DNA of 64,000 nucleotides from positions 682,001-746,000 of the forward strand of contig NZ_JACGWT010000002.1 of assembly GCF_014137855.1 (NCBI RefSeq), given 5' to 3'. This document shows, in pieces, positions 44,504 to 63,520 of this stretch. The notes below the pieces were generated by a model. The model saw only the letters and a program-made list of their open reading frames with translations, was not told the DNA's origin and made no database searches. Position 1 is the first letter of the stretch, and each line of letters opens with the position of its first letter. The DNA comes from Microlunatus kandeliicorticis. GTDB taxonomy: Bacteria > Actinomycetota > Actinomycetes > Propionibacteriales > Propionibacteriaceae. Position numbers and translations under genes: made by a program.

Positions 44504-44505
44504 GA

Positions 44506-46861: not shown

Positions 46862-46917
46862 CCGGCGGTCACGCGGACGCGTGCGGTTGCCGGTGGTGAC
46901 GCGGAGCGTGCGGTGAT
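46862..46917 (+). repeat. palindromic 27/28-bp repeats, cluster 1 (2 units)
   Basis: One clean CACGCGGACGCGTG and one variant unit directly after the flavoprotein. This is the first cluster of the family seen from the left. Confidence 0.8.
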
Positions 46918-46952
46918 CCGGATGCCCGAAGTGACCTCGACGCGAGTCTGAC

Positions 46953-47135
46953 CTAAGAGTCGACGTCGATGCCCTCGCTCAGAAGTCTTACCTTCAGCTC
47001 ACTGGCAGTCAGAAGTGACTTGAGCCGATGAACCTCGTTCAGAAGCCTTCCCCGCTCGACCACCAAGTCGGCAACGCGCTGCCTGAGCGACTCCATCTCC
47101 TGCGACTCCGCTGCATTCACCAGGTCAGGATCCAT
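46953..47135 (-). CDS. small coiled-coil protein
   Basis: A 60-residue hydrophilic protein. The segment from about residue 12 (QEMESLRQRVADLVVERGRL, then NEVHRLKSLL) is a strong heptad coiled coil. AAGG precedes the ATG. It has no recognisable family and is flanked by repeat clusters 1 and 2. Confidence 0.5.
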   Translation of the reverse strand: MDPDLVNAAESQEMESLRQRVADLVVERGRLLNEVHRLKSLLTASELKVRLLSEGIDVDS

Positions 47136-47228
47136 CAAACCTTGCTCAGCTTGGCTGAGCCTCGAGCTGCCGCGTCAATCAGCTCGCCGGCGCACAAGGG
47201 TGCGACTGTCACGACACGACGCCGCCGA

Positions 47229-47290
47229 TAGCCAGACGCGTGCGGTTGCCGGTGGTCACGCGGACGCGTGCAGTCGCCGGTGGTCGATGG
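47229..47290 (+). repeat. palindromic repeats, cluster 2 (2 units)
   Basis: A 5'-truncated unit (AGACGCGTGCGG) and one complete CACGCGGACGCGTG unit followed by the partial flank CCGGTGGTC. Confidence 0.8.
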
Positions 47291-47579
47291 AGCCCCTGGT
47301 CGATGGTCGGTGGGCGCACCAATAACTCTCAACGATCGGTCAGAATCGTGAGCCGGATTTTGCCAGCTGCTAGAAAAATTCAGGTGAGTTGCGGTGCCAT
47401 CGCAGCGCGCTGCTGTACTCACGACGACACTCACAACGCATGGCTTCCGGGGGGAGCGGCTCAATAGCGAGCCAAGCCGTGCGCTATCGATTGTTTCTAT
47501 TGGTGGCTGTCTATTGGATGCAGATAGATGGAAGAAATCTAGGGAGCGGATCACGCAGCGGGTCGACAGCGAACACGGG

Positions 47580-47797
47580 CAGTTCACGGTAGTCACGCGG
47601 AGCGTGCGTTAACCGGTGGTCACGCAGTGCGTGCGGTGGCCGGTGGTCACGCGGACGCGTGCAGTTTCCGGTGGTCACGCGGACGCGTGCAGTTACCGGT
47701 GGTCACGCGGACGCGTGCAGTTACCGGTGGTCACGCGGAGCGTGCGGTGGCCGATGGTCACGCGGAGCGTGCGGTGGCCGGTGGTGGAACGGACGCT
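47580..47797 (+). repeat. palindromic repeats, cluster 3 (7 units)
   Basis: Units alternate between the GGA-centred 27-bp form and the GA-centred 28-bp form. The second unit is CACGCAGTGCGTG, in which a change in the left arm is matched in the right arm, so symmetry is kept. Confidence 0.85.
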
Positions 47798-47875
47798 AGA
47801 AGTTGCCCCACCGCTCGTTGATGTGCTCGAAACATGGCCATTCCCACTCGGCTGGTCACCGGCGAGACTACTGGC

Positions 47876-48490
47876 GTGAACACCCCCGGTTCTCCCCCTG
47901 ATGCCAAGCAGGCTGCCCTGGAGCTGAGCGAGGTACTCGCCGAGAACGCAGCAGCTCTGGCCAGCGACGACCTGGCGACGGTGGCCGCCGCGATGACCAG
48001 GGTTCGGGCCGGCGCTCGAGCTCTCGAAGCAGGCCTCACTTCCAGAGGGTGGGGCGGAGACGTTCTCTATGGGTGGGGAGAGCCCGACGAGGACGAGCTC
48101 GAAGACCGCTGGCCCGAAACAGTCGATGACGACGAGTCGGACGGAGCGGTCATTCCGTCGGACGGTCCTTTCCTTCCGTCATCTGCGCTGAAGATGACCT
48201 ACCAGTGCCGCGCTGACTTCTATCTGACCGATGAGCAGGCCCTCATCGATTGGATTGTTGAGCATGCCGGCGACTGGGGACTGCACGGCTGGGACCGTCC
48301 CTATGTCGAGAGCCGTGGCGCGTTCGATTGCTTCACCGACTTGGTCTCGCAGCCCCGGCTGGACCTGACGGACACCGGCTTGCTGCCAGCCGGTAGTCAG
48401 GCGGTGACCTACCAAGTCGACAGGACGCTCTGGGAGATGCACGAGGACGATGTCGATACCGCCGGCGACGCGTTCCCGGTGAACGGCTAG
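47876..48490 (+). CDS. hypothetical protein
   Basis: A 204-residue acidic protein of unknown family. A GTG at 47876 with GGCGAG upstream is the preferred start; an ATG at 47834 is in frame. The N-terminal 60 residues are helical (LELSEVLAENAAALASDDLA), followed by an acidic linker and a C-terminal alpha/beta part (CRADFYLTDEQALIDWIVEHA). It is flanked by repeat clusters 3 and 4. Confidence 0.65.
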   Translation: MNTPGSPPDAKQAALELSEVLAENAAALASDDLATVAAAMTRVRAGARALEAGLTSRGWGGDVLYGWGEPDEDELEDRWPETVDDDESDGAVIPSDGPFLPSSALKMTYQCRADFYLTDEQALIDWIVEHAGDWGLHGWDRPYVESRGAFDCFTDLVSQPRLDLTDTGLLPAGSQAVTYQVDRTLWEMHEDDVDTAGDAFPVNG

Positions 48491-48522
48491 CCGCAGGACG
48501 GATCCTCGAGCGGGCAGAGGTC

Positions 48523-48562
48523 GCGGTTGCCGGTGGTCACGCGGACGCGTGCTATAGCCGGC
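48523..48562 (+). repeat. palindromic repeat, cluster 4 (1 unit)
   Basis: A single CACGCGGACGCGTG unit in the 75-bp gap between two convergent hypothetical genes. Confidence 0.75.
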
Positions 48563-48565
48563 GCG

Positions 48566-48946
48566 TCACCCAGAGCTAGAGGTCGCTTCGAGCGCAGAGG
48601 CGACCAGTGACTCGAAACGACTCTGGTAAGCCGGTTCGATCAGTGACTCGACGCGAAACAGGTACCAGCCTTCGTTGGACTTCAGTTCGAGACTGACCCG
48701 CGCTCCGTCGTTGTCCGGCGACGCCTGGACTCGGAAGGTGAAGGGCACCCTCGCCCCGCCTGAGGGTCCCAGAACACCCCACAGGCGCATCGAGAGGCGA
48801 GACCCACCTTTACCTTGGGCGTGCGTTGGCGCGTCACGTTCCACACTGAGGCCATCCGAGGTGAAGCGACTGACGATCGCGTCGATAGCAGCAGCAGCCT
48901 CAAGCGTTGTCTCGAAAACCTCTGAATGCGTGATAGGTGCGACCAC
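48566..48946 (-). CDS. hypothetical protein
   Basis: A 126-residue soluble protein, predicted alpha/beta, without a signal peptide. The segment LRLWGVLGPSGGARVPFTFRVQ and the charged middle EGWYLFRVESLIEPAYQSRFE are compatible with an SRPBCC-like or DUF fold, but I recognise no family. The start is a GTG or ATG near the N-terminal MVAPITHSE. It is convergent with the preceding gene. Confidence 0.6.
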   Translation of the reverse strand: MVAPITHSEVFETTLEAAAAIDAIVSRFTSDGLSVERDAPTHAQGKGGSRLSMRLWGVLGPSGGARVPFTFRVQASPDNDGARVSLELKSNEGWYLFRVESLIEPAYQSRFESLVASALEATSSSG

Positions 48947-48993
48947 AACGAGAGTGTGTCAGGCGATGGCCCAGCATGACGGCTGTCTTCACA

Positions 48994-49058
48994 AGCCGGT
49001 GGTCACGCGGACGCGTGCAGTTACCGGTGGTCACGCGGAGCGTGCGATAGCCGGTGGC
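48994..49058 (+). repeat. palindromic repeats, cluster 5 (2 units)
   Basis: One GA-centred and one GGA-centred unit between two minus-strand hypothetical genes. Confidence 0.8.
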
Positions 49059-49078
49059 CCATCGGACGGCTCTGATCG

Positions 49079-49648
49079 CTAGCGGAGGTGCGGCTGTGGT
49101 CCAGCCACAATCGCTAGGTTCTTCTCGTAAGTTCGGCCGAAGTCCACGCGCGTGATCGTGTCGGTGCGGTGCCTCTGGGCCTTCGGTTTCCATCGACCCT
49201 CGATATCGACTTCGTGAAGCCGCAGGTTTCGACGCCCCCACTTGTGCGGGCGGCCGATGTAACACACGTTGGTGCGGCGGAGCTCAGGATGGATCGTGAC
49301 CAGGTCGGAGTGAGCGGCGATGCTGTCGACGAGTTGCTGGACCCCGTGATCGAGATCGATTGGATGCCGAGGTGCTTCGAGCGGCCAAACGCTCTGCGCT
49401 TGCAGGGAACGGCGCACGAACCGATTGGAGGGATCCCAGTACAGGCCCTTGATGTCATCAATGCGGACCGCAACGTAGCCGTCGGGCGAGCCGTCCGTGG
49501 GCACGGCGAGCAGCACCCACTTCGAGCCGATCGCAACCACGTAGGCGTCCAGCGAATCGCAGCCCTTGATTCGACGCTCAAGCCGTAGACAGTCATGCCG
49601 TCTCATTGCGCGGGTCAGATCTGCGACTCGCTTCTTCCGCCCAGCCAT
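49079..49648 (-). CDS. hypothetical protein
   Basis: A 189-residue basic protein of unknown family. It has an RMRRHDCLRLERRI-like start (TRAMRRHDCLRLERRIKG), a strand-rich centre (VVAIGSKWVLLAVPTDGSPD, GYVAVRIDDIKGLYW) and CYIGRPHKW later. It resembles proteins annotated as conserved hypothetical in actinobacteria. ATG start; there is no signal peptide. Confidence 0.65.
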   Translation of the reverse strand: MAGRKKRVADLTRAMRRHDCLRLERRIKGCDSLDAYVVAIGSKWVLLAVPTDGSPDGYVAVRIDDIKGLYWDPSNRFVRRSLQAQSVWPLEAPRHPIDLDHGVQQLVDSIAAHSDLVTIHPELRRTNVCYIGRPHKWGRRNLRLHEVDIEGRWKPKAQRHRTDTITRVDFGRTYEKNLAIVAGPQPHLR

Positions 49649-49689
49649 GGTCAGAGTATGTCAATCACCTAACCCGCGCCGCTGGCGAA

Positions 49690-49846
49690 GCGGTGGTCAC
49701 GCGAAGCGTGCAGTTGCCGGTGGTCACGCGGACGCGTGCGGTGGCCGGTGGTCACGCGGAGCGTGCGGTACCCGGTGGTCACGCGGAGCGTGCGGTACCC
49801 GGTGGTCACGCGGACGCGTGCAGTTGACGGTGGTGACGCGGACGGG
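49690..49846 (+). repeat. palindromic repeats, cluster 6 (about 6 units)
   Basis: Starts with CACGCGAAGCGTG (loop GAA) and ends with a decayed unit; two neighbouring units share the spacer TGCGGTACC. Confidence 0.8.
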
Positions 49847-49891
49847 TTGGGCCCGCCCGTTTGAGTCGTAATGCGGAGCGAACCGCCGAGG

Positions 49892-51097
49892 CTACGCAGC
49901 GAAGGCTGTGCGGCTGCGGGCGGCGAGGATGAGGGCAAGGAGCAGGACGGGAACGCCGAGCAGGAACGGGGCGTGGAGTCCGAGACCGGTGGCAGCGACA
50001 CCTCCCACGGCGGCTCCGAGAAGGGATCCAGCGGTGATCAGGACTCGGTTGACGCTGATGATTCGCCCGAGCAGACGCGGGGGAACCTTGCGTTGGATGG
50101 TGGTGCGCACCTGCACGTTCCAGATGGCGAAGGCCATGCTGCTCGTGGCCATCACCGCGGCGGTGACCACCACCGAGCTCGTGGTGCCCAGCGCAAGCTG
50201 ACCGAGTGCGGCCAGCAGCAGGGCGGTCAGCGTGCTCTTCTTCGCCCCGGCGCGTCTGGCGAGAGGAGCGGCGAGCAGGCCGCCACTGACGCCACCCACA
50301 GCGCCGACGGCCAGCAGGACTCCGTACCAAGCCGAGCCCAGGTGCAGAACCTGCTGGACGTAGAGCACGAGCAGGGCGAACCAGGCGGTGTCGGTGATGG
50401 CCAGGGCGATGCTGGTGGCCGGCACGGCCCAGAAGTCTCGGTGCTCTCGCAGCCAGGTCAGGCCCGCTCGGATATCGGATCTCTGGTGGGAGGCGTCGGA
50501 CTCGGCCACCAGCTCGGTAGCTCCAACGAGGGCGGGGATGCTCACCACCAAAGCCACAGCGATGGCCAGTGTTCCGCCGTTGACCGCGAAGGGGAGGACC
50601 ACGGCGATCCCGAACAGGTAGCCGCCCAGAGGCGGGCCGACGAACTCGCTGCCGGTGATCTCAGCACTCACCATCCGCCCATTGGCGACGTCCAACTGCT
50701 CTCGGTTCACGATCGAGGGCACCAGGGTGCTGGCGGCCGTGTTGCGGACCACGTCGGTGACACCCGAGGCGAACACCACGACGTAGAGCACGGCGATCGA
50801 CGCACCACCGCTGGCGATCAGGCCGATGAGACCGGCTAGGAAGGCCAGCCGAACGGCATCGGCCGCGATCACGATCCGCCTCCGGTCGAAGCGGTCGGCC
50901 AACCAGCCCGCCGTCAGCCCGAAGAGCAGTCCAGGGAGCTGGGTGGCCACGGCCACGCCTGAGATCAACAGCGGATTCCGCGTCAGCGACACCGCAAGCA
51001 AAGGAAAGGCTGCAGCCCGGACGCCGTCGCCCACATTGGACAACAAGGTGGCGGTCCACAACCGGCGAAACGGGGCACCCAGGGCAACGGCCGTCAT
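49892..51097 (-). CDS. MFS transporter
   Basis: A 401-residue major facilitator with twelve hydrophobic segments. The N-terminal half has GWLADRFDRRRIVIAADAVR, the classic loop 2-3 motif (G-x-L-A-D-R-x-D-R-R), and the C-terminal half repeats it weakly (APLARRAGAKK). ATG 51097 follows GGAGGGG. It resembles drug-efflux MFS proteins such as MefA-type, but substrate specificity cannot be inferred. It stands alone between repeat clusters 6 and 7. Confidence 0.85.
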   Translation of the reverse strand: MTAVALGAPFRRLWTATLLSNVGDGVRAAAFPLLAVSLTRNPLLISGVAVATQLPGLLFGLTAGWLADRFDRRRIVIAADAVRLAFLAGLIGLIASGGASIAVLYVVVFASGVTDVVRNTAASTLVPSIVNREQLDVANGRMVSAEITGSEFVGPPLGGYLFGIAVVLPFAVNGGTLAIAVALVVSIPALVGATELVAESDASHQRSDIRAGLTWLREHRDFWAVPATSIALAITDTAWFALLVLYVQQVLHLGSAWYGVLLAVGAVGGVSGGLLAAPLARRAGAKKSTLTALLLAALGQLALGTTSSVVVTAAVMATSSMAFAIWNVQVRTTIQRKVPPRLLGRIISVNRVLITAGSLLGAAVGGVAATGLGLHAPFLLGVPVLLLALILAARSRTAFAA

Positions 51098-51222
51098 CGG
51101 GACCCCTCCATGAGCACTCTGCCGACGTTGGCTGACAACCAATCAGAGCTGGCACTCTCGGGTCAAGAGTGCCAATCACCGAGAACACTTCGTCGCGACG
51201 GACGTCGGTCGACGTGAACCAT

Positions 51223-51576
51223 TACCGGTGGTCACGCGGAGCGTGCGGTTGCCGGTGGTCACGCGGAGCGTGCGGTTGCCGGTGGTCACGCGGAGCGTGC
51301 GGTTGCCGGTGGTCACGCGGAGCGTGCGGTTGCCGGTGGTCACGCGGAGCGTGCGGTTGCCGGTGGTCACGCGGAGCGTGCGGTTGCCGGTGGTCACGCG
51401 GAGCGTGCGGTTGCCGGTGGTCACGCGGAGCGTGCGGTTGCCGGTGGTCACGCGGAGCGTGCGGTTGCCGGTGGTCACGCGGAGCGTGCGGTTGCCGGTG
51501 GTCACGCGGACGCGTGCGATGGCCGGTGGTCACGCGGAGCGTGCGATAGCCGGTGGTCACGCGGACGTCGTGTGCA
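51223..51576 (+). repeat. palindromic repeats, cluster 7 (about 13 units, ten identical)
   Basis: Ten consecutive 27-bp units with no visible difference (period exactly 27, so the frame stays open), then one GA-centred unit, one GGA-centred unit and a broken end unit. The identity of the run implies recent tandem expansion. Confidence 0.9.
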
Positions 51577-51621
51577 TCAGGAGCCGCGATCGATGCGTGA
51601 GCGGATCTGTAGCTTGTCAGC

Positions 51622-51927
51622 ATGCCCATGGACGACATGACCACACTCCCGGTGGCCTCGGTGCATGACTATGTTCGAGCCGCACATGACCTGGCCGACG
51701 GTCGCTTTGGCGATGGAGCCGTGTTCCTGGCTGGCGAAAGCGCAGCCCGGCTGACCGAGCAGCGGATTGACGATTTCTCTGACCGGCTAAACGAGTTGAT
51801 CACTGAGTTCTTCGCGCCTGACGCTGCGCAATGGGAGTCGCCCATCAAGTACAGCTTTCGCTGGATCCTGATGCCAGTCGACACGGCGCCGGATGATGAT
51901 GTTCGCGCGCAATCCACCACCTGGTAG
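51622..51927 (+). CDS. small hypothetical protein
   Basis: A 101-residue acidic helical protein of unknown function. Three ATGs (51622, 51628, 51637) are possible starts. The end of the protein contains FAPDAAQWESPIKYSFRWIL; there is no signal peptide or membrane segment. It lies between repeat clusters 7 and 8. Confidence 0.55.
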   Translation: MPMDDMTTLPVASVHDYVRAAHDLADGRFGDGAVFLAGESAARLTEQRIDDFSDRLNELITEFFAPDAAQWESPIKYSFRWILMPVDTAPDDDVRAQSTTW

Positions 51928-51930
51928 CCA

Positions 51931-51963
51931 GGGTGGTCACGCGGAGCGTGCGATAGCCGGTCG
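51931..51963 (+). repeat. palindromic repeat, cluster 8 (1 unit)
   Basis: A single GGA-centred unit right after the small hypothetical gene. Confidence 0.75.
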
Positions 51964-52062
51964 TAGGAGCGAGCCGTATGTTCTGCGGACGCTTCTGGGA
52001 AACGCGCTCTGAGGACCGCCGCCCTCGATACGCCCGGTGGAGGTGTCCCTAAGCTGCGGCGC

Positions 52063-52971
52063 ATGCCGAGAGCGAGCAGCATCGAAGCTGGGGTCGAGCG
52101 GTTCCGACACGCGGTGACGGAGCGACACCTTGGAGTCGAGGGGTTACACATCCATACCCGGAATGGCGCGCCGATCGCTGTTCGCTGGGTCTCCGATGAC
52201 CGCAGAGAGGTCTACTCGGTCTCCAAAACCTTCACCTCCGTAGCCATCGGTATGGCCCGCGCCGAAGGGCTGCTCGACCTCGAAGCTTCCGTGCTGACCT
52301 TCCTGCCAGAGTTCGCGGCCATCGCCGCACCAGGCATCGATGCCGTCACGATCCATCAACTTCTGACGATGACCTCGGGAATCGGCTACCGCTGGCAGGG
52401 CGAGGACAACGACCATCCTGGCGACCCGGCCGCCGATATCCTCTCGACACCGCTGGACGCTGAACCGGGCGAGCAGTTTGCCTACCGCGGCGGGAACTCC
52501 TACCTGCTGAGCCGAATCATTTCCGCGGTCAGCGGCCAGGACATGCGCGACTATCTGATGCCACGGCTCTTCGTGCCCTTGAAGATCGGCAATCCCCAGT
52601 GGCTGCGTTGCCCGCTCGGCTTTTCGATGGGCGCGGTCGGGCTGCAGCTGCGCACCGAGGAGGTCTCGCGGCTCGGCATCACCTTGCTGAACCGGGGACA
52701 GCACGGCGGGAGACAGGTTGTCCCTGGCGATTACGTCGACCTGATGCACGATGAGGCGATCAGCTCCAACCTCGAGGGAGTGCAGGGCGCTTACGGACTG
52801 CACTGTTGGCACTGCGACCGAGACGACGCCTGGCGGATGGATGGACTGTACGGCCAGTTCAGCATCATCTTTCCGCGGCAGCAAGCATGCATCACCCTGA
52901 CCTCGCACTACGAGCAGGCAACCACCGACATCCTCGACGCGGTCTGGGACGAGCTCGTTCCAACACTGTGA
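52063..52971 (+). CDS. serine hydrolase of the beta-lactamase/class C family
   Basis: A 302-residue Pfam beta-lactamase-type hydrolase without a signal peptide, so cytosolic. The catalytic SxxK tetrad is S52-V-S-K55 in EVYSVSKTFTSV. TMTSGIGY follows, then FAYRGGNSYLLS as the Y-x-N equivalent (with two extra residues). No clear KTG box was found. The family includes esterases and D-aminopeptidases as well as beta-lactamases; its presence in an accessory island makes a resistance role possible but unproven. Confidence 0.8.
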   Translation: MPRASSIEAGVERFRHAVTERHLGVEGLHIHTRNGAPIAVRWVSDDRREVYSVSKTFTSVAIGMARAEGLLDLEASVLTFLPEFAAIAAPGIDAVTIHQLLTMTSGIGYRWQGEDNDHPGDPAADILSTPLDAEPGEQFAYRGGNSYLLSRIISAVSGQDMRDYLMPRLFVPLKIGNPQWLRCPLGFSMGAVGLQLRTEEVSRLGITLLNRGQHGGRQVVPGDYVDLMHDEAISSNLEGVQGAYGLHCWHCDRDDAWRMDGLYGQFSIIFPRQQACITLTSHYEQATTDILDAVWDELVPTL

Positions 52972-52981
52972 ACACAGAATC

Positions 52982-53056
52982 CGTTGGTCACGCGGAGCGT
53001 GCGGTAGCCGGTGGTCACGCGGAGCGTGCGATAGCCGGGGTCACGCGGACGCTCAC
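52982..53056 (+). repeat. palindromic repeats, cluster 9 (3 units)
   Basis: Two GGA-centred units and a third with a decayed right arm (CACGCGGACGCTCAC). Confidence 0.8.
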
Positions 53057-53115
53057 CAAGCGGCGGCTGGAGAAACTGACTTGCGGGGCGACCTCCTGGC
53101 CCGCAGGCTTCCCGG

Positions 53116-53913
53116 GTGCACCGGGTGTTCGAGACGCTGGAACGCGCACGTAGGTGGGTCCGAGTGGACGTTCGGATCCGGGCCGCCTTGATCCACGGCT
53201 CCGTCGTCCAAGGTGACACGACGCCCCTGTCTGACCTGGACCTCATCGTGATCGCCGAGCCCGGCGAACGGGACGCGATCTGGGCAGATCGACTGTCCAT
53301 CACCGACCGTCTGCTCGGTGCGCCGGCAGCGGTGACCGAGGTGCTGCCGCAACGGCCCTACCGCTGGCAGGCCCGCACCCTCGACCTGGCCATGCTCGAC
53401 TTCACCATCGACGAGACCTACATGGCAATGTGGGACGGCTTCGAGGGCCCTGTCGAGTTCCTCATCGACCGCGCCGACGTCCAGGCCCGTTTCGAGCAGG
53501 ACATGGCAGCCCAGGCGACACCCTCAGCCTTTGATGCTCGCGTCGATTGTGATGACACCTGGGGCCGGCTAGCCAAGCTCACCGCGCTCACCCTCCACGG
53601 CCGCCGCCACATCGCGCGCACCGGCCTCCACGATCTGATCGGTAACAACCTGCTTACCCTGCTCGACCGAGATCCCTACCGCATCGGGTCGATCGGAGAC
53701 GCCCACGACGTTCAGCTGGTCCAGCAGCTCGACTTCATCTACCCGGCGAGTAGTGAACCCGCTGAGCTTCAGCGGGCACTCATGGCAACCGCCCACTGGT
53801 ACGGCGAGCTCCTCACCGCATGGGCCGCTCGGACCGGCAAGGACCGCCCCACCTGCCCAATCGAAGGACCCGTAACCGAAGCCATCCAGACACTCGCTAG
53901 ATCCCAGGAATGA
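53116..53913 (+). CDS. nucleotidyltransferase-fold protein
   Basis: A 265-residue protein of the polymerase-beta-like nucleotidyltransferase superfamily. The metal-binding motif is LIHGSVVQGDTTPLSDLDLI, with G28-S29 and D40-x-D42. A long helical C-terminus follows. The overall form resembles aminoglycoside nucleotidyltransferases (ANT), with a catalytic base not identified. GTG start at 53116, or 53125. Function as an antibiotic-modifying enzyme is only a possibility. Confidence 0.75.
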   Translation: MHRVFETLERARRWVRVDVRIRAALIHGSVVQGDTTPLSDLDLIVIAEPGERDAIWADRLSITDRLLGAPAAVTEVLPQRPYRWQARTLDLAMLDFTIDETYMAMWDGFEGPVEFLIDRADVQARFEQDMAAQATPSAFDARVDCDDTWGRLAKLTALTLHGRRHIARTGLHDLIGNNLLTLLDRDPYRIGSIGDAHDVQLVQQLDFIYPASSEPAELQRALMATAHWYGELLTAWAARTGKDRPTCPIEGPVTEAIQTLARSQE

Positions 53914-53956
53914 TCCGACGAGCGGGGTGCGCCTCCTAGTCGAGGCGGCTGAGCGG

Positions 53957-54000
53957 AGCCGGTGGCCACGCGGACGCGTGCGGTTGCCGGTGGTTGAACG
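53957..54000 (+). repeat. palindromic repeat, cluster 10 (1 unit)
   Basis: One GA-centred unit with GGCCACGCGG in place of GGTCACGCGG, plus a flanking half unit, between convergent genes. Confidence 0.75.
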
Positions 54001-54030
54001 AGACGGTTCCGCCACCCGTCCGAACTCACC

Positions 54031-56280: not shown

Positions 56281-56341
56281 CCGTCGACGCTCGAGCACGA
56301 TTGCGCGGAGGATGACTTACCGAAAGCTCGCCTGCCAGCGG

Positions 56342-56875
56342 TTAAGAGCGCGCGGCATCGAAGGCCGCTTTGACGGCGCGGGCCAGGTCGGCTCCATCGA
56401 GGACAGGCCCACGCGGATCGACTAGTCGTCGCGATCCGATCGGCGAACCCTCGTAACGAGGGATCAACTGAATATGCAGGTGGTTGACTTCCCCGTCGCA
56501 CATCGTGACCTGATAGACCCGTTCAACACCCGTGAGCGACGCACGCAGAGCGCGCGCCACATCACGACACACCGTGAAGAGTCGAGCGGTCTCGCCATCA
56601 TCTAGTTCAGTGAAGTCCTGAACGTGGGACTTCCAGACAACAATGGAATGCCCGGGCGCGCGTGGATCGAGCGCCAACGTCACCCGAACGTCCGCTTCAT
56701 CGACGATCAGATCCTGCGGACCCAAGACGTCACCGTGAGACATCTCGCGGCAGGTGTAGCAGATGCTACGGTCCAGCAAACTGCTGACAGTCTGAGCAAC
56801 CTGGTCCCGTCTATTCGACCACCGCAACACCTCATCCCTCGTCGGCATTCGACGCGGGATGAACGTGGTGGGCAC
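56342..56875 (-). CDS. HIT-family hydrolase/transferase
   Basis: A 177-residue histidine-triad nucleotide-binding protein. The HIT signature is EVNHLHIQLIPRYEG (H-x-H-x-Q). CYTCREMSHGD near the N-terminus may bind zinc. GTG at 56875 has GAGG five bases upstream; an earlier frame start lies at 56923. HIT proteins hydrolyse or transfer nucleotide phosphoramidates or AP4A. It stands alone between repeat clusters. Confidence 0.8.
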   Translation of the reverse strand: MPTTFIPRRMPTRDEVLRWSNRRDQVAQTVSSLLDRSICYTCREMSHGDVLGPQDLIVDEADVRVTLALDPRAPGHSIVVWKSHVQDFTELDDGETARLFTVCRDVARALRASLTGVERVYQVTMCDGEVNHLHIQLIPRYEGSPIGSRRLVDPRGPVLDGADLARAVKAAFDAARS

Positions 56876-57003
56876 TCCGACCTCACTGCTCCTCACTTCG
56901 CGCACAGTTCCAGGGTCACACAAGAGTGGCCATCTCGACGTGGCATGTCCCAGACCAAAGCAACATGTGTCTCAGCCGCACAATCTCCCTCCGAAGACAC
57001 ACA

Positions 57004-57098
57004 CAGTTGCCGGTGTTCTCGCGGAGCGTGCGGTAGCCGGTGGTCACGCGGACGCGTGCAGTTGGCGGTGGTCACGCGGCCGTGTGCCGTTGCGGTGG
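57004..57098 (+). repeat. palindromic repeats, cluster 13 (3 units)
   Basis: A 5'-altered unit (CTCGCGGAGCGTG), one clean GA-centred unit and CACGCGGCCGTGTG. Confidence 0.78.
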
Positions 57099-57122
57099 AC
57101 AGTGCCCCATCTTGAAGCGCCT

Positions 57123-58142
57123 TCAGCAGTAGCGAAGGCTGCGCTTAGCCGTCTCGGCAAGTGCCCTTACCGTGCGGAGCCGTTCGAGCGACCACTGAAT
57201 CGTAGGTTCTTGCATCGGGTCCTTCCCGGCGGCGAGGAAGTGACCAAACCCGACACCAGCACAAACAAGAACCCTGAACGCGATGGCACGTTCGAGGCCA
57301 TCGCGATCGGCGCCGGCCAGAATCATGTGCTCGCTGTATCCGGCTAGCAACGCATCGATCGACGCTGACTCCGCGTGGTCCGGCTGGTAGATGAGCCCGC
57401 CGGTGGCGCAGGAGAGGAGGGCAAACGCCAAGTCGATGATCGCTGGCCCAAATCCAGAACTGTCCCAGTCGAAGAAGTGGACTTGTCCCGATTCAGCTCG
57501 AACACAGTTCCATTGGTGCGCGTCTCCGTGGAGGAAGGTTTGCGTGAGGCCGGTCTGCTCCTCGAGGCCGTCTGCGCAGGCATCAACGAGTGACTTCCAC
57601 TGCCGTGCAGTGTTCCGATTGGGGAGGTCGTGTTCGTATGGCAGGAGGTTGCGGAGCGCGAACCGCAGCTCGTTGGCGGGCAGCATGCCTGCGCGCTCGA
57701 CCACTGGGGCGCCGTCGATGGTCCGCGGCATGGCAGCGGCGATGCCGTGGCCATGGTGGTGGAGTTGTCCAAGCGAGGAGCCGAACTGATACAGATCTTC
57801 AGGGTCCCGCGACAGCGCTCGGCCCTCGATATAGTCCATGACAAGGAGCTCGTCCTGCCTCGACCCGGTCCGATGCTTCGTGACCGGCGCTCCGTTCCGT
57901 GCGCGCAGCAGCTTCGCTGCGGGAAAGCCGGCGTTTGCCAGAGCCTCGAGCACGCCGGCCTGGCGCTCCAGGTCGCCCTGGCCAATTCTGGCGACATAGG
58001 CACCAGCATCCGACTCGACGAGGAACGTAGGGTGATCCGCAGAGAATCGGCGGATCAGTGTCGGTTGCAGCCCGTACTGATCGACCAAGCAGCTTTGAAG
58101 CAGCTGTATGTCGAGATCGCCCTCGGCTGGCTTCTCACGCAT
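57123..58142 (-). CDS. aminoglycoside phosphotransferase-like kinase
   Basis: A 339-residue APH/choline-kinase-type phosphotransferase. The catalytic loop is FLHGDAHQWNCV (H205-G-D207, N212) and the metal-binding segment FFDWDSSG (D225-W-D227). N-lobe residues with FLVESDAGAYVARIG precede. The family includes antibiotic kinases and homoserine/fructosamine kinases, so resistance is only one option. It is the only gene between repeat clusters 13 and 14. Confidence 0.82.
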   Translation of the reverse strand: MREKPAEGDLDIQLLQSCLVDQYGLQPTLIRRFSADHPTFLVESDAGAYVARIGQGDLERQAGVLEALANAGFPAAKLLRARNGAPVTKHRTGSRQDELLVMDYIEGRALSRDPEDLYQFGSSLGQLHHHGHGIAAAMPRTIDGAPVVERAGMLPANELRFALRNLLPYEHDLPNRNTARQWKSLVDACADGLEEQTGLTQTFLHGDAHQWNCVRAESGQVHFFDWDSSGFGPAIIDLAFALLSCATGGLIYQPDHAESASIDALLAGYSEHMILAGADRDGLERAIAFRVLVCAGVGFGHFLAAGKDPMQEPTIQWSLERLRTVRALAETAKRSLRYC

Positions 58143-58744
58143 CGATCGGGGTCAGGGTTGCATCGAATCGGGTGTGCTCATCTGCCGAAGCTTGAGCGAT
58201 GAGGAGCTGCTGTGGCAACGCAATATCTTTCCCAGTCGACTTCTGCCCGGCGCCGGGCCCGCTCGGGCTTTCCGTCTGACGGGTCGACCGCTGCGGACAT
58301 GAGGCCACTCAGACGAGACGTGACCTCGAGGTGGCGGGTGGTCACGCGCACCCGTGCAATGACCGTGGTCACGCGGAGCGTGCGATAGCCGGTGGTCACG
58401 CGGAGCGTGCGATAGCCGGTGGTCACGCGGAGCGTGCGATAGCCGGTGGTCACGCGGAGCGTGCGATAGCCGGTGGTCACGCGGAGCGTGCGATAGCCGG
58501 TGGTCACGCGGAGCGTGCGATAGCCGGTGGTCACGCGGAGCGTGCGATAGCCGTTGGTCACGCGGAGCGTGCGATAGCCGTTGGTCACGCGGAGCGTGCG
58601 ATAGCCGGTGGTCACGCGGAGCGTGCGATAGCCGGTGGTCACGCGGAGCGTGCGATAGCCGGTGGTCACGCGGACACTCGTCGCATCCAGTCGTCGGACT
58701 TCTATAGGCAAATGAAGGCGCACCCGATGTCAAGCTGCTCCAAC
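58143..58744. other. gene-free gap filled mainly by repeat cluster 14
   Basis: About 600 bp. Bases 58333-58680 are repeats. The rest has only short open frames without motifs or clear start signals. Confidence 0.5.
58333..58680 (+). repeat. palindromic repeats, cluster 14 (about 13 units)
   Basis: Starts with a decayed unit (CACGCGCACCCGTG), then a run of nearly identical GGA-centred units with spacer TGCGATAGC (two have GTTGGTCAC), and a broken last unit. Period is 27 bp. Confidence 0.9.
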
Positions 58745-59164
58745 TCAAGGGGCCGACGAGCGGATCCTCTCCCCAAGAACGTCTACTACTCCTTCGTCGG
58801 TCCAACCGCTACCAAGGCTCCCCCAGGGGGTCAGAGACTCCCCCCGCAGCCAGTCGAGGACATCAGCTGGGTCGGCGTGACCGCCGGCTTCTCGACGCGG
58901 TACGACGACCTCGTCGAAGACATTCACACCGTCAGCGACACGGCGCCAGACGAGCTTGTCGTCACTGGTTGTGTAGATCAGCCAAGTCGGGGAGTCGTCG
59001 ACGGTGATGCAGCTGCAGATCCAGAGAGCCATCTCTGCGGGTACCTGGCCCAGTGGGAGCCGCTCCGGGCCGCCTTCGGCTTGGACGGCCGCCGTCAGCA
59101 GCGCCTCGACAAGCGGGACTGCGGGGTCCTCCCAAGTCTCCCGCGGGCGCCTGAATCCGAACAT
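58745..59164 (-). CDS. hypothetical protein
   Basis: A 139-residue acidic protein without a recognised family. Visible features are ALWICSCITVDDSPTWLIYT and WRRVADGVNVFDEVVVPR; it is predicted alpha/beta and without signal peptide. ATG start. It is flanked by repeat clusters 14 and 15. Confidence 0.6.
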   Translation of the reverse strand: MFGFRRPRETWEDPAVPLVEALLTAAVQAEGGPERLPLGQVPAEMALWICSCITVDDSPTWLIYTTSDDKLVWRRVADGVNVFDEVVVPRREAGGHADPADVLDWLRGESLTPWGSLGSGWTDEGVVDVLGERIRSSAP

Positions 59165-59227
59165 GCCGGGACGATAGGCCGCAACCAGCGCAGGCGCCTC
59201 CGAATATGGTGCGCGCGTGCCGATCGT

Positions 59228-59273
59228 CCGGTCGACGCGTGCGGTTGCCAGTAGTCACGCGGACGCGCACGGG
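59228..59273 (+). repeat. palindromic repeats, cluster 15 (about 2 units, decayed)
   Basis: A 5'-truncated GACGCGTGCGG and CACGCGGACGCGCAC, in which the right arm has lost symmetry. Confidence 0.7.
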
Positions 59274-59395
59274 CTCAAGCACCGCCGATTGGCTGCTGAA
59301 TCGAAATGACGCCCGCCGATCAGCGTGCGGTCGTCATTGATCAGCGCGGTGCGACGGATGCGAGCTGCCCCTTGTCTCGATTGGTACCGGCGGCT

Positions 59396-59569
59396 TCACG
59401 GTCGATAGCGGCGGGCGCGATGGCGGTCTACGAGCACAGCGAGCGCCACGACCACCAGCGCAACGATGACCATCACCCAGAGCGGGACGTGGAACCAGGC
59501 GCACAGGCTATACAAGGCGAAGGTGAAGAAGGCCAGCGTGGCGAGGACGACTCCTTGACGAAGGGTCAC
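59396..59569 (-). CDS. small membrane protein coupled to the preceding gene
   Basis: A 57-residue protein with two hydrophobic stretches (VVLATLAFFTFALYSLCAWF and VMVIVALVVVALAVLV) and a basic tail (DRHRARRYRP). The GTG start overlaps the stop of the upstream membrane-protein gene (GTGA), so it is translationally coupled. The role is unknown. Confidence 0.55.
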   Translation of the reverse strand: MTLRQGVVLATLAFFTFALYSLCAWFHVPLWVMVIVALVVVALAVLVDRHRARRYRP

Positions 59570-59871
59570 CGGGAGGCCTGGTCCGTGGCTCGAGCTCGCT
59601 TGTTCGACAGGTACCAGAGGATCGCGGACCGCGTATAAAGAACGATCTGCACGCCCGTCAATACCACCCAGAGACCCTGGAACCACCACGACCGGTGATC
59701 CCAGAAGCCGGCTGCGATCTGGGCACCACCGATGACGGTCCAAAGTAGAGCGGCGGCGATTGAGGTCCCCAAGGACCCGGTCATAGCGCCCTTGGGCCGG
59801 TCCGGGCGCGAAGGTCCGGTCCAGAACCGGATGAAGCGCTGGCGCATCGTCCGCTCCTGCTCGTCGGTCAC
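59566..59871 (-). CDS. small membrane protein
   Basis: A 101-residue protein starting at GTG (TDEQERTMRQRFIRFW). It has two hydrophobic helices (GTSIAAALLWTVIGGAQIAAG, and WWFQGLWVVLTGVQIVLYTR) and a basic C-terminus. No family was recognised. Together with the coupled downstream gene it forms a two-gene membrane unit between repeat clusters 15 and 16. Confidence 0.6.
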   Translation of the reverse strand: MTDEQERTMRQRFIRFWTGPSRPDRPKGAMTGSLGTSIAAALLWTVIGGAQIAAGFWDHRSWWFQGLWVVLTGVQIVLYTRSAILWYLSNKRARATDQASR

Positions 59872-59920
59872 ATTGGCAGCTTGCCAGGGGGCAGTCGCAC
59901 CGACGGCCGGATATGCAAGT

Positions 59921-59997
59921 TTGGTGGTCGCCCAGACGCGCGGTGGCCAGTGGTCACCCGGACGCGTGCGGTAACCGGTGGTCGCACGGGCGCCTGC
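59921..59997 (+). repeat. palindromic repeats, cluster 16 (2 to 3 decayed units)
   Basis: Units CACCCGGACGCGTG and CGCACGGGCGCCTG, plus a preceding partial CGCCCAGACGCG. Confidence 0.7.
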
Positions 59998-60114
59998 ATC
60001 AGTCCGAGCCGGGGTGGCCGACCTTGCCGCGTCCGACCGGGACAAAATAGGCCCCGTTGCAGGGGAAGATCAGGGCCGACCCGAAGGTGAAGACAGCTCT
60101 CAGCGGGTCGCTAG

Positions 60115-60471
60115 TTACATCGTTGGGTCGGGCCGGACCTGTGCCACGCCGTGCGGAAATCGCAACACCACGAACCTCTCGCCAAAGATCCGGGTGTCGA
60201 GCTCCTCCTGGATGTGCGTCAGCATGAGACGCAACGCCACCAACTCGAACGGATCATCTGGCCAAAGACCCGCGGCGCTTCGACCTGAGACCCGAATCGC
60301 ATGACCACACTCCCGGGGACTGAAGCCGAGACGCATCACGATCCGAGTCTGGTTCCATCCATCAGATCCGATCGCTGGCTGCACAGACCAACCACCACCG
60401 AAAGTCCTGATCCCGTCCCGGATCAGCGCCACCCGCAGCTCACCGACGAACCGCGCAACCCGTTCTATCAT
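60115..60471 (-). CDS. hypothetical protein
   Basis: A 118-residue soluble protein, predicted alpha/beta (VARFVGELRVALIRDGIRTF, RLMLTHIQEELDTRIFGERF). No family was recognised and there is no signal peptide. It is divergent from the TlpA-like gene with an 86-bp spacer lacking a repeat, the only non-operonic boundary in this region without one. Confidence 0.55.
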   Translation of the reverse strand: MIERVARFVGELRVALIRDGIRTFGGGWSVQPAIGSDGWNQTRIVMRLGFSPRECGHAIRVSGRSAAGLWPDDPFELVALRLMLTHIQEELDTRIFGERFVVLRFPHGVAQVRPDPTM

Positions 60472-60557
60472 CGGGCCCCAGTATCGACGACCTAGACCAC
60501 TGAGTTGGCTCCACCAGGCACCAAGCCCGGCAGGCGCCCCACTGAGACAATGACGCA

Positions 60558-61130
60558 GTGACCTCCAAACGGGCGGTGACGGCAGCCATCACTGTTGCCG
60601 TTGCGGTCCTCGCAGGTTGTGCCCACTCACAACCCGCCAGCACGTTTGGCCCGAGTCCTGCGCCTCACCCAGGAACCACCCAGATCGCACCAGAGCAGCG
60701 CAAGACCGTGCCGGTGCTCCAAGGGCCGGCACTGAACAGGGGCGGTGTGGTGTCCACTGCTGGTCTTGCCGGTCAAGTCGTGGTCATCAACTTTTGGGCC
60801 TCATGGTGTCCTCCGTGCCAAAAGGAAGCGCCAGCCCTCGCACAAGCGAGTCACTGGGCCGGGGATCGAGCAGTCTTCGTCGGCGTGGACAGCCATGACG
60901 AGGCACGGTCGAAGGCTTCAGCTCTACTCCGGCAGCGAGGGCTGCGCTATGACAACATCTACGACCCGGCCGACAGCCAACTCGACAAGCTGGCGGGGAA
61001 CCTCCCCACTGACGTGCTGCCCTCAACGATCGTGCTCGACAAGCAAGGACGGCTGGCCGTGCGGATACTCGGGCCCGTAAACGCCGACACACTCCTGACC
61101 GAAATCGAGGCCGTAAACCACGGCCGCTAG
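60558..61130 (+). CDS. TlpA/ResA-like thioredoxin lipoprotein
   Basis: A 190-residue membrane-anchored thiol-disulfide protein. The lipobox VLAGC (Cys21) ends the signal, a Pro/Thr linker follows, and the thioredoxin fold carries INFWASWCPPCQKEAP with C84-P-P-C87. The cis-Pro loop is LPSTIVLDKQG. Such proteins reduce or oxidise exported thiols, for example in cytochrome maturation. GTG start. It lies between the divergent hypothetical gene and repeat cluster 17. Confidence 0.85.
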   Translation: MTSKRAVTAAITVAVAVLAGCAHSQPASTFGPSPAPHPGTTQIAPEQRKTVPVLQGPALNRGGVVSTAGLAGQVVVINFWASWCPPCQKEAPALAQASHWAGDRAVFVGVDSHDEARSKASALLRQRGLRYDNIYDPADSQLDKLAGNLPTDVLPSTIVLDKQGRLAVRILGPVNADTLLTEIEAVNHGR

Positions 61131-61205
61131 AACCCGCGGCCGGCCGCCACAAAGAGACCCTTAACCCGTCCCGGTCGAGCGTCGCCCTCCTCGGCCCGCG
61201 CTCGA

Positions 61206-61288
61206 CTGCCGGTGGTCACGCAGAGCGTGCAGTTCACGGGGGTCACGCGGAGCGTGCAGTTGACGGTGGTTTTGCAGACGCCCGCAGC
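61206..61288 (+). repeat. palindromic repeats, cluster 17 (2 to 3 units)
   Basis: CACGCAGAGCGTG (loop AGA, arms intact), CACGCGGAGCGTG, and a decayed third, between convergent genes. Confidence 0.78.
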
Positions 61289-61329
61289 GGCCGGTGTTCG
61301 TCGGGTTCCCTCGCGCTCTCCTACGGGAG

Positions 61330-61707
61330 CTAGCTCTGATCCCAGACAGGCGATTCGGGATCCGCATCGAAGGCGTAATGGACAAGCAGGTGCCCGCGCA
61401 ACGCGGACTGCAAGCGGTTCGCAAGCGTCCGGCCCATCGCCCGCCACCGCTGTTCACGATCGGCTGACGACTCAACACCCGCTGACACCGCAGCGACCCC
61501 GCTCTCCCAGTCTCGGGCCCACGAACGCAGAGCGTCGACGAGCTGAGTTTCGAGTCCGAAGGCGTCGAGGTCCAGGTTGCCCACGACGCCTTCCGACCTG
61601 AATGCCCAGATCGGATCCGCTCCGTAATCCACGTCCACGACGACGCGCTCAAGGCCCTGGTCGAGCAGCACCTGCAATCTCCGACCCGGGACGACAGGAG
61701 AGACCAT
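61330..61707 (-). CDS. hypothetical protein
   Basis: A 125-residue helical protein of unknown family (LQVLLDQGLERVVVDVDYG, then LETQLVDALRSWARDW). ATG 61707 is used; an ATG at 61728 is in frame and neither has a clear ribosome-binding site. It is flanked by repeat clusters 17 and 18. Confidence 0.5.
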   Translation of the reverse strand: MVSPVVPGRRLQVLLDQGLERVVVDVDYGADPIWAFRSEGVVGNLDLDAFGLETQLVDALRSWARDWESGVAAVSAGVESSADREQRWRAMGRTLANRLQSALRGHLLVHYAFDADPESPVWDQS

Positions 61708-61754
61708 GGCCGGAGCGTGCCACACCACCGGTCAACGCAAGAGAGCATCAAAGT

Positions 61755-61847
61755 CGCCGGTCTCACCCGAACGCGTCGGTAGCCGGTGGTCCCGCGGAGC
61801 GTGCGTTAGCCGGTGGTCACGCGGACGCGTGCAGTTGCCGGTGGTCA
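61755..61847 (+). repeat. palindromic repeats, cluster 18 (3 units, one decayed)
   Basis: CACCCGAACGCGT, then CCCGCGGAGCGTG, then a clean CACGCGGACGCGTG. Confidence 0.75.
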
Positions 61848-62068
61848 GAAGACTGATGCGGGAGCGCTACCGCGGCTGCAGCCACGTCAGTCCCGGCGAT
61901 TGTTGACTAAAGCTCTCGCTCGCGCGGGACGCCGTCGTGACGCGGAGGCGCGCTTTGCTCCAGGATGTTGGGCTGTCGCCGATCACAAAGGACCCACCCA
62001 CACCCCAGCTCGAGCCCCACCTCCTCCCTACAGGCTGGACCAACACCCGATGTAGAGATCTTGGCGAC

Positions 62069-62761
62069 CTACCTCTGGCATTGACGGGCGTCGGCCAGAA
62101 GTTCCCATCGGATCTCACCGAGCGAAGCTACGGCACAAATTCCAGCCGGAACGGATGAGCGCTGGCGGTTCAACCAAATAGCTCGAAGTCGAGATCGGAG
62201 AGCACCTTGTACGTCTTGACTCAGTGAATCGCCGATCATCAATGACTCTTCTGCCAAAGCTCCGATGATCGCGACGGCCTCCAGAAACGCCTCAGGAGCA
62301 GGCTTTGCTGCTGAGAGAAGTGATGAGGCGATAAACACATCTACTTTCGAAGACAGCCCACACTTTTCTAACTTGAGGCGCTGGTGCCCGGCATCACCGT
62401 TGGTCAACACCCCTACGATTAGACCTAGATTAAGCGCTGCATCTAACGCGGGCCCAGCATCTTCAAAAGCCCTCCAGCCGGACTCATACAATTCGAGGTA
62501 CTCCTCGAACAATTGGTCCAACTCGTCGTTACCTGCCTTTACCTGCAAGAAATCCTGCACCCGCCGCCGACGCTGCTCCTGAAATGTGAGTTCTCGCCTC
62601 TGAAAAGCAGCGTAATGCTTTTCCGAGAGGGCACGCCACTTGTCGACGGCGCCTTCGCCCTCGCCGCAGTGGCGGCAGGCCCACTCGGTGGCGGCTGCGT
62701 CTGCGGCTGATCTTTGATCAATCAGAGTCTCATCGAGGTCAAACAATACGGCCTTGAGCAT
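62069..62761 (-). CDS. HAD-family hydrolase
   Basis: A 230-residue haloacid-dehalogenase-type phosphatase. Motif I is AVLFDLDETLIDQR, motif II is VGVLTNGD, motif III contains K in SAAKPAPEAF, and motif IV is MIGDSLSQDVQGA. The helical cap is class I, as in phosphoglycolate phosphatase or YjjG. GGAAGG eight bases upstream supports the ATG at 62761. It starts 17 bp after the Nudix stop, so both are co-transcribed. This pair is less GC-rich than the rest of the region. Confidence 0.85.
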   Translation of the reverse strand: MLKAVLFDLDETLIDQRSAADAAATEWACRHCGEGEGAVDKWRALSEKHYAAFQRRELTFQEQRRRRVQDFLQVKAGNDELDQLFEEYLELYESGWRAFEDAGPALDAALNLGLIVGVLTNGDAGHQRLKLEKCGLSSKVDVFIASSLLSAAKPAPEAFLEAVAIIGALAEESLMIGDSLSQDVQGALRSRLRAIWLNRQRSSVPAGICAVASLGEIRWELLADARQCQR

Positions 62762-62778
62762 GCTCGCGCCTTCCATCC

Positions 62779-63303
62779 TCAAAGACTTAGGAATGGGCTC
62801 CGTTGCGTAGTGAACATCGTGCCGTCGACCGCAACATCGAACTGGTAGAAGGGAGTCCGTCCTGTGCACTTGTCGATACAGTAATCGGCGAAGGCGGCAG
62901 CCACGGGAGCTATGGCCGTTGACTTCACCAACTCAGATGCCCTATCCAGAGACAGCCACGAAGCCGACCTTACGTTGCCACCGGGGTCCGTGTTCTGAGG
63001 GAGCTCAACGGTCTCACGCAACAGGAATTCAAACCCAATCGCCAGCCAACCATCCATGCCCCCCGCGTCATTCTGCATGAGCATATGTGTGACATAGGCA
63101 AGGCGAGTCGGAGACTTCACGTTCAGCCCCGTCTCTTCGGCAATCTCACGTATTGTCGCTTCGATAGGCTTCTCACCAGGCTCGACTTTGCCACCCGGGG
63201 CCGACCACTGAGGGCCAAATGGAGACGAGTTTTCAACGAGAACCACTTGGTCCCCGCTACGTAAGATGCCGGACACTACTAGGCTTACTTTTGCAGCTGC
63301 CAT
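62779..63303 (-). CDS. Nudix hydrolase
   Basis: A 174-residue Nudix protein. The Nudix box GGKVEPGEKPIEATIREIAE-ETGL fits G-x5-E-x7-R-E-U-x-E-E-x-G-U exactly. It hydrolyses nucleoside diphosphate-linked compounds. It lies upstream of, and close to, the HAD phosphatase gene, a pairing that could remove modified nucleotides in two steps, though this is speculative. Confidence 0.85.
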   Translation of the reverse strand: MAAAKVSLVVSGILRSGDQVVLVENSSPFGPQWSAPGGKVEPGEKPIEATIREIAEETGLNVKSPTRLAYVTHMLMQNDAGGMDGWLAIGFEFLLRETVELPQNTDPGGNVRSASWLSLDRASELVKSTAIAPVAAAFADYCIDKCTGRTPFYQFDVAVDGTMFTTQRSPFLSL

Positions 63304-63469
63304 TTGCCCTCATGATGTCTCGTTAGGTCAGAGCGCCGTCAAGCCCTTAAAATACACTGACCCGCTAGGCAGGACAGATGCCCGCTCAGCTTCGGGTGGG
63401 TCAGCCCCAGACTCCTTCAGCCTATCGACCGGTACAGCGCGGCCTGGGTAGCGTGCTCCCTCCTCAGCG

Positions 63470-63520
63470 CGAGTCGTGCGATAGCCGGTGGTCACGCGGA
63501 CGCGTGCGGTAGCTGGTCGT
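63470..63520 (+). repeat. palindromic repeat, cluster 19 (1 clean unit plus flanks)
   Basis: One clean CACGCGGACGCGTG unit with flanks TGCGATAGCCGG before and TGCGGTAGC after. It is the last cluster in the window. Confidence 0.75.

Follow-up and report, generated by a model that had tools for sequence, protein, structure and literature searches.

This analysis concerns a family of 27/28-bp palindromic repeat units in a 64,000-nucleotide stretch of the genome of Microlunatus kandeliicorticis (contig NZ_JACGWT010000002.1, positions 682,001–746,000; hereafter the window), where clusters of units alternate with small genes in a long array. We propose that this array (array A) and a second one in the same genome (array B) belong to an integron-like cassette system, in which crossover would take place at the 27/28-bp dyads, probably through a small serine recombinase; on the sequence comparisons given below, this reading is assigned a probability of roughly 0.58. 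The evidence consists of the anatomy of the arrays, the polarity of their units, the right end that arrays A and B have in common, breakpoints of homology at units, and a recombinase gene at the focus of the arrays of relatives. Taken together, units of fixed polarity, modules of single genes bounded exactly at units, and a recombinase at the focus amount to the logic of an integron carried out with different components. A more specific proposal, put forward tentatively and at a little under even odds, is that of a serine-recombinase counterpart of the integron in Actinobacteria: a resolvase-type enzyme would capture and shuffle single-gene modules at 25–29-bp GGA-hairpin dyads, with one or two wings of units facing its own gene and with orphan arrays on conjugative elements.

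In the proposed mechanism, the repeats would be junction sites, and each module, usually one small gene in either orientation, would lie between units of fixed polarity and be exchanged by crossover at or beside a unit. Since the unit has the size and dyad form that we take to fit the site of a small serine recombinase dimer, recombination centred on the unit is proposed, most likely by a small resolvase/invertase-type serine recombinase that would bind the dyad as a dimer and cut near its centre. Clusters would also grow by ordinary tandem duplication (slippage). In the window genome, the recombinase would be expected at the conserved right end, toward which the units face.

Repeat Units and Arrays A and B

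Coordinates follow the window numbering, which is run on past 64,000 as extended positions; C2 denotes contig coordinates. A search with the pattern GGTGGTCACGCGGA(C)GCGTGC, allowing up to 5 mismatches, finds 97 units in 20 clusters at 46,864–63,507, all on the + strand. The first-pass annotation had counted just under 100 units by hand, which agrees, in 19 clusters, one short of the present number, in which a lone weak 5-mismatch unit at 61,933 is counted as a cluster. Array A runs on past the window edge to extended position 67,021 (C2:749,021) and comprises 117 units in 24 clusters in total. Array B (37 units in 6 clusters, all +) lies at C2:649,001–656,174, which is 26–33 kb left of the window start and near a tRNA-Pro gene. 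The family had been placed in a single island, which array B corrects; its island-specific character is borne out, as the exact unit occurs in its own genome only within the two arrays. The 15 minus-strand matches in the 204-kb stretch C2:602,001–806,000 (all with 4–5 mismatches) are at chance level, as are 3 isolated 5-mismatch matches in the window before 46,850, where copies had been stated to be absent.

A unit reads GGTGGTCACGC-GGA-GCGTGC or GGTGGTCACGC-GGAC-GCGTGC; with the 7-nt spacer behind it, this makes periods of 27 and 28. The 27/28-bp dyad is imperfect, with the stem CACGC/GCGTG and the centre GGA or GGAC; 117 of the 154 units of arrays A and B carry the perfect palindrome in one of its two forms. 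The unit had been written as GGTGGTCAC followed by CACGC..., which has to be amended, because it counts CAC twice (GGTGGTCACCACGC has 0 occurrences on the + strand of the window). The units are extragenic and tandemly amplified within clusters. Thirteen units stand at 51227–51571, 10 of them identical in succession, and the largest cluster, at 54632–55452, has 30 units; identical 7-nt spacers occur in runs. Across both arrays, module edges counted in, the 7 bases after the unit take 47 forms, whereas the 20-nt core is almost invariant. A conserved core beside so variable a spacer is unlike the residue of pure minisatellite slippage, and suggests that the core is recognised by something.

Between the 23 clusters of array A (the weak unit at 61,933 omitted) there are 22 gaps, of which 17 hold one gene, 4 hold two and 1 holds none, as judged by eye from the list of open reading frames; by the same means, 7 genes point along the unit direction and 18 in the opposite direction. 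Their products are unrelated: MFS transporter, beta-lactamase family, nucleotidyltransferase domain, HIT, APH, thioredoxin-like, HAD, NUDIX and an AAA-domain kinase-like protein, with several genes lacking a Pfam match in the subset scanned. Those of array B are SDR, metallophosphoesterase, amino-acid-kinase family and NUDIX proteins. At the edges of 26 clusters, the degenerate unit that closes a cluster tends to retain the left half and the one that opens it the right half. Position by position, agreement with the unit drops from 22–23 matches to 6–10 past the centre on one side, and on the opposite side of the same clusters it goes up to 10–20 past the centre. Gradual decay of terminal repeats could be the source of part of this half-unit pattern.

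All 30 clusters, across two separate arrays, have their units on one strand, and all units of both arrays face a conserved right end. This end is a 204-bp block that closes both arrays (76% identical); it has 2 copies in its own genome and none in 194 other genomes of the family. Apart from the units and this block, arrays A and B have in common a 59-bp module edge at 61307–61365 (+ strand; 75% identical to C2:652523–652581 of array B), which stands directly to the right of a unit cluster in both, and nothing else.

The exact unit was sought more widely as well. As a 20–21-mer it does not occur in 19 further genomes of the genus; a shorter pattern gives one isolated match in 197 other genomes of the family, and a collection of about 85,000 species, which may omit records very near the window's own genome, gives two isolated single matches. 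Among the species searched, no other has the exact unit as an array. The first-pass statement that the unit belongs to no named family likewise holds as far as it was followed up. Rfam gives a single irrelevant match below threshold for 46500–64000, the Y1/RAYT transposase family PF01797 has 0 matches in the genome, no recombinase among those scanned comes up to the integron-integrase cut-off, phage and plasmid collections contain no megablast match of the array, viral contigs match neither the unit nor the right-end core, and no matching repeat description was found in the literature covered, in which subscription journals and preprints are mostly lacking.

Related Arrays and Their Recombinase Genes

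Related hairpin arrays exist both in the same genus and in another family, which goes against the idea that nothing related exists; the first-pass annotation had seen the repeat family and had missed the gene-cassette architecture and the recombinase linked to it in relatives. A search with the array DNA in 391 genomes of the order found tandem arrays in G321, G389 and G242, which belong to another family, with units of type I (GATGGGCTCGCGGAGCGACCCGG...) and type II (GATCGTCACGCGGAGCGTGACCA...). The relation of the window unit to type II is based on 15 identical consecutive bases together with period, clustering and setting. A pattern covering types I and II and the window's 27-bp unit has matches in 26 of the 391 genomes, with at least 2 matches in 12 of the 390 non-own genomes, against 5 single matches for a reversed control pattern. 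Single matches in G333 and G399 were set aside as chance, the sequence being conserved on both sides.

A recombinase gene lies within about 1 kb of the array in all three genomes. The protein of G242 has the domains PF00239 and HTH_7 (a helix-turn-helix, HTH), and those of G321 and G389 are close homologues. A resolvase at least 92% identical to that of G242 occurs in 9 genomes, 8 of which have at least 2 units (the exception being G392), vs the 12 of 390 found overall. Between units and resolvase, a 268-aa protein without a Pfam match is encoded at L248:14746–15552, with homologues in L241 and L242; its three copies belong to G321 (one) and G396 (two), and elsewhere other small genes or nothing stand in that place.

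Hairpin tandem arrays were present at 4 of 30 recombinase loci of about 3.5 kb (G242, G321, G389 and G006), and 1.0 Mb of background regions held one simple-sequence tandem. The fourth of these loci, like G001, belongs to the genus of the window genome. The G006 recombinase is 71% identical to that of G242 and is followed by 28-bp units with the core CGTGC-GGA-GCACG; over 24 kb the array has 9 clusters with 35 exact cores in total, and each cluster faces the recombinase gene. The G001 array has 110 exact cores in 38 clusters over 63 kb; it may continue past the left edge of the 100 kb fetched. Inside the array lies the recombinase gene (70%). To the left of this gene 23 of 27 clusters face right, and to its right 11 of 11 face left (Fisher p 1.1e-6), so that 43 of 47 clusters in the two genomes face the recombinase gene (binomial p 2.8e-9). 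In the units of both genomes, the stem is changed on both sides with respect to the window unit while loop and stem length are the same, which is the basis of this relation. As in arrays A and B, mostly small genes in both orientations lie between the clusters, the cluster ends examined show similar half-units, and no module is common to arrays A or B and these two arrays beyond weak family hits. Arrays A and B were presumably built in the same way as those of the relatives.

Units as Breakpoints of Homology

Time and again in the other family's islands, several places have one flank of a unit in common but not the other. A module flank that is 98% identical in G396 and G321 is followed by a type II unit in one and by type I units in the other. 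In G321, an 859-bp module with a single glyoxalase-family gene (PF19581) is duplicated at 99.5% identity; both of its ends are at units, and the unit type that follows differs from one copy to the other. A unit of G400 joins a left module, 99.4% identical to contig 13 of G294, to a right module that is 99.7% identical to contig 31 of G294. By these comparisons, modules appear to move between species with unit-exact ends.

The breakpoints were also counted. In regions picked by their recombinase, homology blocks of at least 300 bp and at least 94% identity were taken, and an end no more than 20 bp from a unit was scored as lying at it. Twelve of 35 distinct block ends lie at a unit vs a mean of 0.54 expected when the units are shifted (maximum 6; 0 of 5000 shifts reached at least 12). 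Matching halves are paired in 61 of 77 unit contexts, which belong to three types (38, 16 and 7) whose arms are largely complementary within each type; at least 5 of the 77 are hybrids, in which a left half of one type and a right half of another meet at a common 9-bp core, CGCGGAGCG. A shared core of 9 bp is too short for RecA.

Weight of the Evidence

The recombinase is inferred to act on the units. A number of observations weigh against the cassette reading. The window genome has no match to the recombinase at E 1e-3; in the 204 kb around both arrays, tblastn gives a best E of 0.014, for a helix-turn-helix match only. If the reading is right, arrays A and B are thus orphans; they look akin to the integrase-less arrays of integrons, one of them being carried by a mobile element. 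The case for movement of modules consists of comparative breakpoints in relatives, and these, like the hybrid units, concern unit types other than the window's own; moreover, 23 of the 35 breakpoints lie away from units. In the islands of the other family, G321 included, units stand in both orientations; in G332 they are dispersed over the contig, and G332, G293, G347 and G400 have at least 2 units without a resolvase at or above 92% identity. A second resolvase of G006 (77%) has no array, and 20-kb regions around less similar resolvases are devoid of a tandem hairpin array in 13 of 15 genomes. A unit of 27 bp with an odd centre (GGA) is unusual for a serine-recombinase site.

The resolvase may itself be a small mobile element and thus a passenger, since it recurs with sharp ends of its own and some copies, including that closest to the unit array of G321, are split between two frames. 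Among the resolvase loci L241–L257, the gene at or above 92% identity occurs four times in G396, where the stretch upstream is conserved and the stretch downstream stops sharply at about CGGTTC.

The energy of the predicted hairpin is by itself not unusual compared with shuffled sequences (top strand z –0.49, 0.01 and 0.38); the units stand out by copy number, orientation and conservation. ViennaRNA gives the top strand no advantage, and covariation among the window genome's own units is weak: there is one clear compensatory stem, CACAC/GTGTG, and most other stem changes break pairs, in degenerate edge units. GNAB loops are a class that gives very stable single-stranded DNA hairpins. The same is described for GNA and GNNA loops (PMC4686876). 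The GGA and GGAC loops resemble these classes, and a single-stranded substrate, as in attC, might be pursued as a lead, to which the energy model lends no support.

Host Element of Array A and Setting of Array B

Array A is inside a 32-kb actinomycete integrative and conjugative element (AICE) of the pSAM2 type, recognised by a tyrosine integrase, a RepSA-type Rep, an FtsK/TraB protein and tRNA att repeats. attL is the 40-bp 3′ part (39193–39232, + strand) of a tRNA-Thr gene (39159–39232), and attR is its exact repeat outside the window at extended 71366–71405 (L047 7366–7405). A third, imperfect copy at extended ~92710–92746 (C2:774710–774746), 21 kb beyond attR, suggests a second or older element in tandem. 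The backbone begins on the – strand with the 401-aa integrase (39266–40471; PF00589, 1.5e-26), the pSAM2-like replication initiator (40838–42358; PF20199, 6.2e-88) and the FtsK/SpoIIIE (TraB-like) transfer ATPase (42355–43872; PF01580, 3.2e-9). It ends on the + strand with an HTH_31 regulator (45033–46301) and a flavoprotein (46298–46843; PF02441), and the array starts about 20 bp past the latter. A 373-aa protein encoded at 43945–45066 has no Pfam or NCBIfam match, and its C-terminal part recurs in 18 of the RepSA neighbourhoods fetched.

Forty such neighbourhoods of the order, covering 19 kb on the array's side (one shorter), contain no comparable array, including L115, which has the same pair of HTH regulator (62%) and, beside it, flavoprotein (60%). 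Repeats of an 11-mer at least 5 times occur in L110, L112 and L116 only, and are of other kinds. Array A is therefore cargo of the AICE, and the idea that such arrays are a standard AICE feature was discarded.

Two cassettes of array A point along the units: a serine beta-lactamase-family protein (52063–52971; PF00144, 5.4e-29), so named by family match only, and a nucleotidyltransferase-domain protein (53116–53913; PF18765/PF01909, weak), as does the thioredoxin-like (Redoxin/AhpC-TSA) gene at 60558–61130. On the – strand are an MFS transporter (49892–51142; PF07690), with a 75% DNA match in G006 over 49898–51120, about the extent of the gene; a HIT-family protein (56342–56923; PF01230); an APH-family phosphotransferase (57123–58142; PF01636); and a HAD hydrolase (62069–62764) that forms one module with a NUDIX hydrolase (62779–63303). 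PADLOC found no match among 9 cassette proteins of unknown family. Within the + strand cluster of 13 units at 58337–58681, the segment 58368–58652 matches the unit array of G321 (L202) at 76%.

Just beyond the right end of array A that the units face, a 240-aa protein is encoded at L047:3612–4334 (extended 67612–68334, +); it has several resolvase-type HTH matches (HTH_7, 3.5e-12) and no catalytic domain. Its HTH matches that of the G006 resolvase weakly (E 0.014), and the right-end block matches sequence close to the resolvase of G006 at a level that is only suggestive (65% over 60 bp, E 0.03).

Next to tRNA-Pro, array B abuts the tail end of an AICE-type integrase gene; this remnant, at L074:14384–14560 (C2:656384–656560), lies between the array and the tRNA gene and has a homologue in G003 (L152). 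At the left border (L074:6679–6921), an apparently truncated GNAT acetyltransferase frame stands beside a phosphorylase-like gene, both named by eye. In relatives, 12 regions at the tRNA-Pro locus gave no match to any gene of the left flank.

Alternative Explanations

The most serious alternative, rather unlikely and still of real weight, is that the units are mobile palindromes like repetitive extragenic palindromic (REP) sequences and without cassette function, which would insert between island genes, amplify, and then serve as short homologies for RecA or illegitimate recombination, with no dedicated recombinase involved. It would accommodate the extragenic position and tandem amplification of the units, their mixed orientation in G321 and dispersal in G332, and the lack of a resolvase in the window genome. 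It does not predict the single orientation of 30 of 30 clusters there, nor the 43 of 47 clusters that face the resolvase in G001 and G006, and the genome has no Y1/RAYT transposase. The breakpoints are difficult for it too: hybrid units share only the 9 bp at the switch, and flanks that are identical change over at the border of a unit although types I and II are different.

A role as intergenic transcription terminators or insulators that keep acquired genes independent is improbable. A hairpin cluster does stand between most neighbours in the array, whatever the gene orientation, but T-runs are lacking, the 5-bp stems are weak and shuffle-like in energy, the strand is fixed irrespective of gene direction, and a single gap can hold up to 30 copies.

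Still less probable are loading or orientation sites for the FtsK/TraB-type transfer protein of the AICE, resembling clt/TRS (TraB recognition sequences) or KOPS (FtsK-orienting polar sequences). Such a function would explain why an array inside an element with a TraB-like ATPase has units of one polarity. Against it, array B is without a complete AICE backbone and adjoins only the truncated integrase end, the 40 RepSA neighbourhoods lack such repeats although some encode TraB homologues of 61–69% identity, and the sister arrays in G001 and G006 accompany a resolvase.

A true integron, or a cluster of attC sites lacking an integron-integrase (CALIN), whose attC sites would be moved by an integron tyrosine integrase, has a negligible chance of being right. 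Cassette-like genes and directional palindromic sites agree with it. Nine tyrosine recombinases were scanned (the AICE integrase and 8 encoded elsewhere in the genome, the PF00589 fragment L176 being left out), and all fall short of the integron-integrase cut-off, the best TIGR02249 score being 102.8 against 265, in a XerD-like protein. The near-identical, tandem 27/28-bp units are unlike attC, which has a bottom strand that can fold and cores of the form RYYYAAC/GTTRRRY; by eye, the 47 forms of the 7 bases after the unit do not follow GTTRRRY. The genes of array A, 7 along and 18 against the units, do not fit an integron either. In the large IntegronFinder 2.0 survey, the results given for Actinobacteria comprise no complete integron, one In0 and few CALINs (PMC9024848). 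A CRISPR array, whose repeats are parted by unique spacers of uniform length, was dismissed, the spacers being of 7 nt with identical ones in runs.

Comparison with Known Systems

Array A lies between the att sites of a pSAM2-type AICE with integrase, RepSA and FtsK/TraB; it is cargo that the 40 other RepSA neighbourhoods lack, and array B is outside a complete AICE. REP sequences and bacterial interspersed mosaic elements (BIMEs) with RAYT (Y1) are likewise short extragenic palindromes, tandem and dispersed, whereas the present units are confined to gene-module arrays of uniform polarity in a genome without a Y1_Tnp gene. REP sequences that accompany RAYT have the tetranucleotide GTAG/GTRG at the hairpin foot; in the present unit GTGG stands upstream of the hairpin, with one base between.

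Closer in form are the res sites of Tn3-type elements and the hix/gix sites of invertases, which are imperfect dyads of about 28 bp with the crossover expected at the centre. The sister arrays likewise lie next to a gene of the PF00239 + HTH_7 type; such a recombinase accompanies the arrays of G001, G006 and several islands, and not those of the window genome. The differences are that tens to more than 100 sites are spread over a cassette array, in place of one res or a pair of inversion sites, and that 27-bp units have an odd centre.

Among natural platforms that collect and reorder single genes by site-specific recombination, integrons are the well-known one. The likeness to IntI/attI/attC systems, including sedentary superintegrons and CALINs, extends to long arrays whose small modules, mostly of one gene each and mixed in function, lie between directional palindromic sites, as in arrays A and B; to the recombinase gene at the focus, seen in the sister arrays; and to orphan arrays, a conserved array end and carriage by mobile elements. 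Unlike in integrons, no protein at the level of IntI was found here, the units are short (25–29 bp), near-identical and tandem, the recombinase linked to them in relatives is of the small serine and not the tyrosine type, two wings face one recombinase in G001, and genes stand in both orientations. The reading is directly testable with a 200-aa enzyme and a 28-bp site. If true, it would account for some of what actinobacterial islands and AICEs carry. Gene collecting would then have been invented a second time, on the same logic and with a recombinase and sites unrelated to those of integrons.

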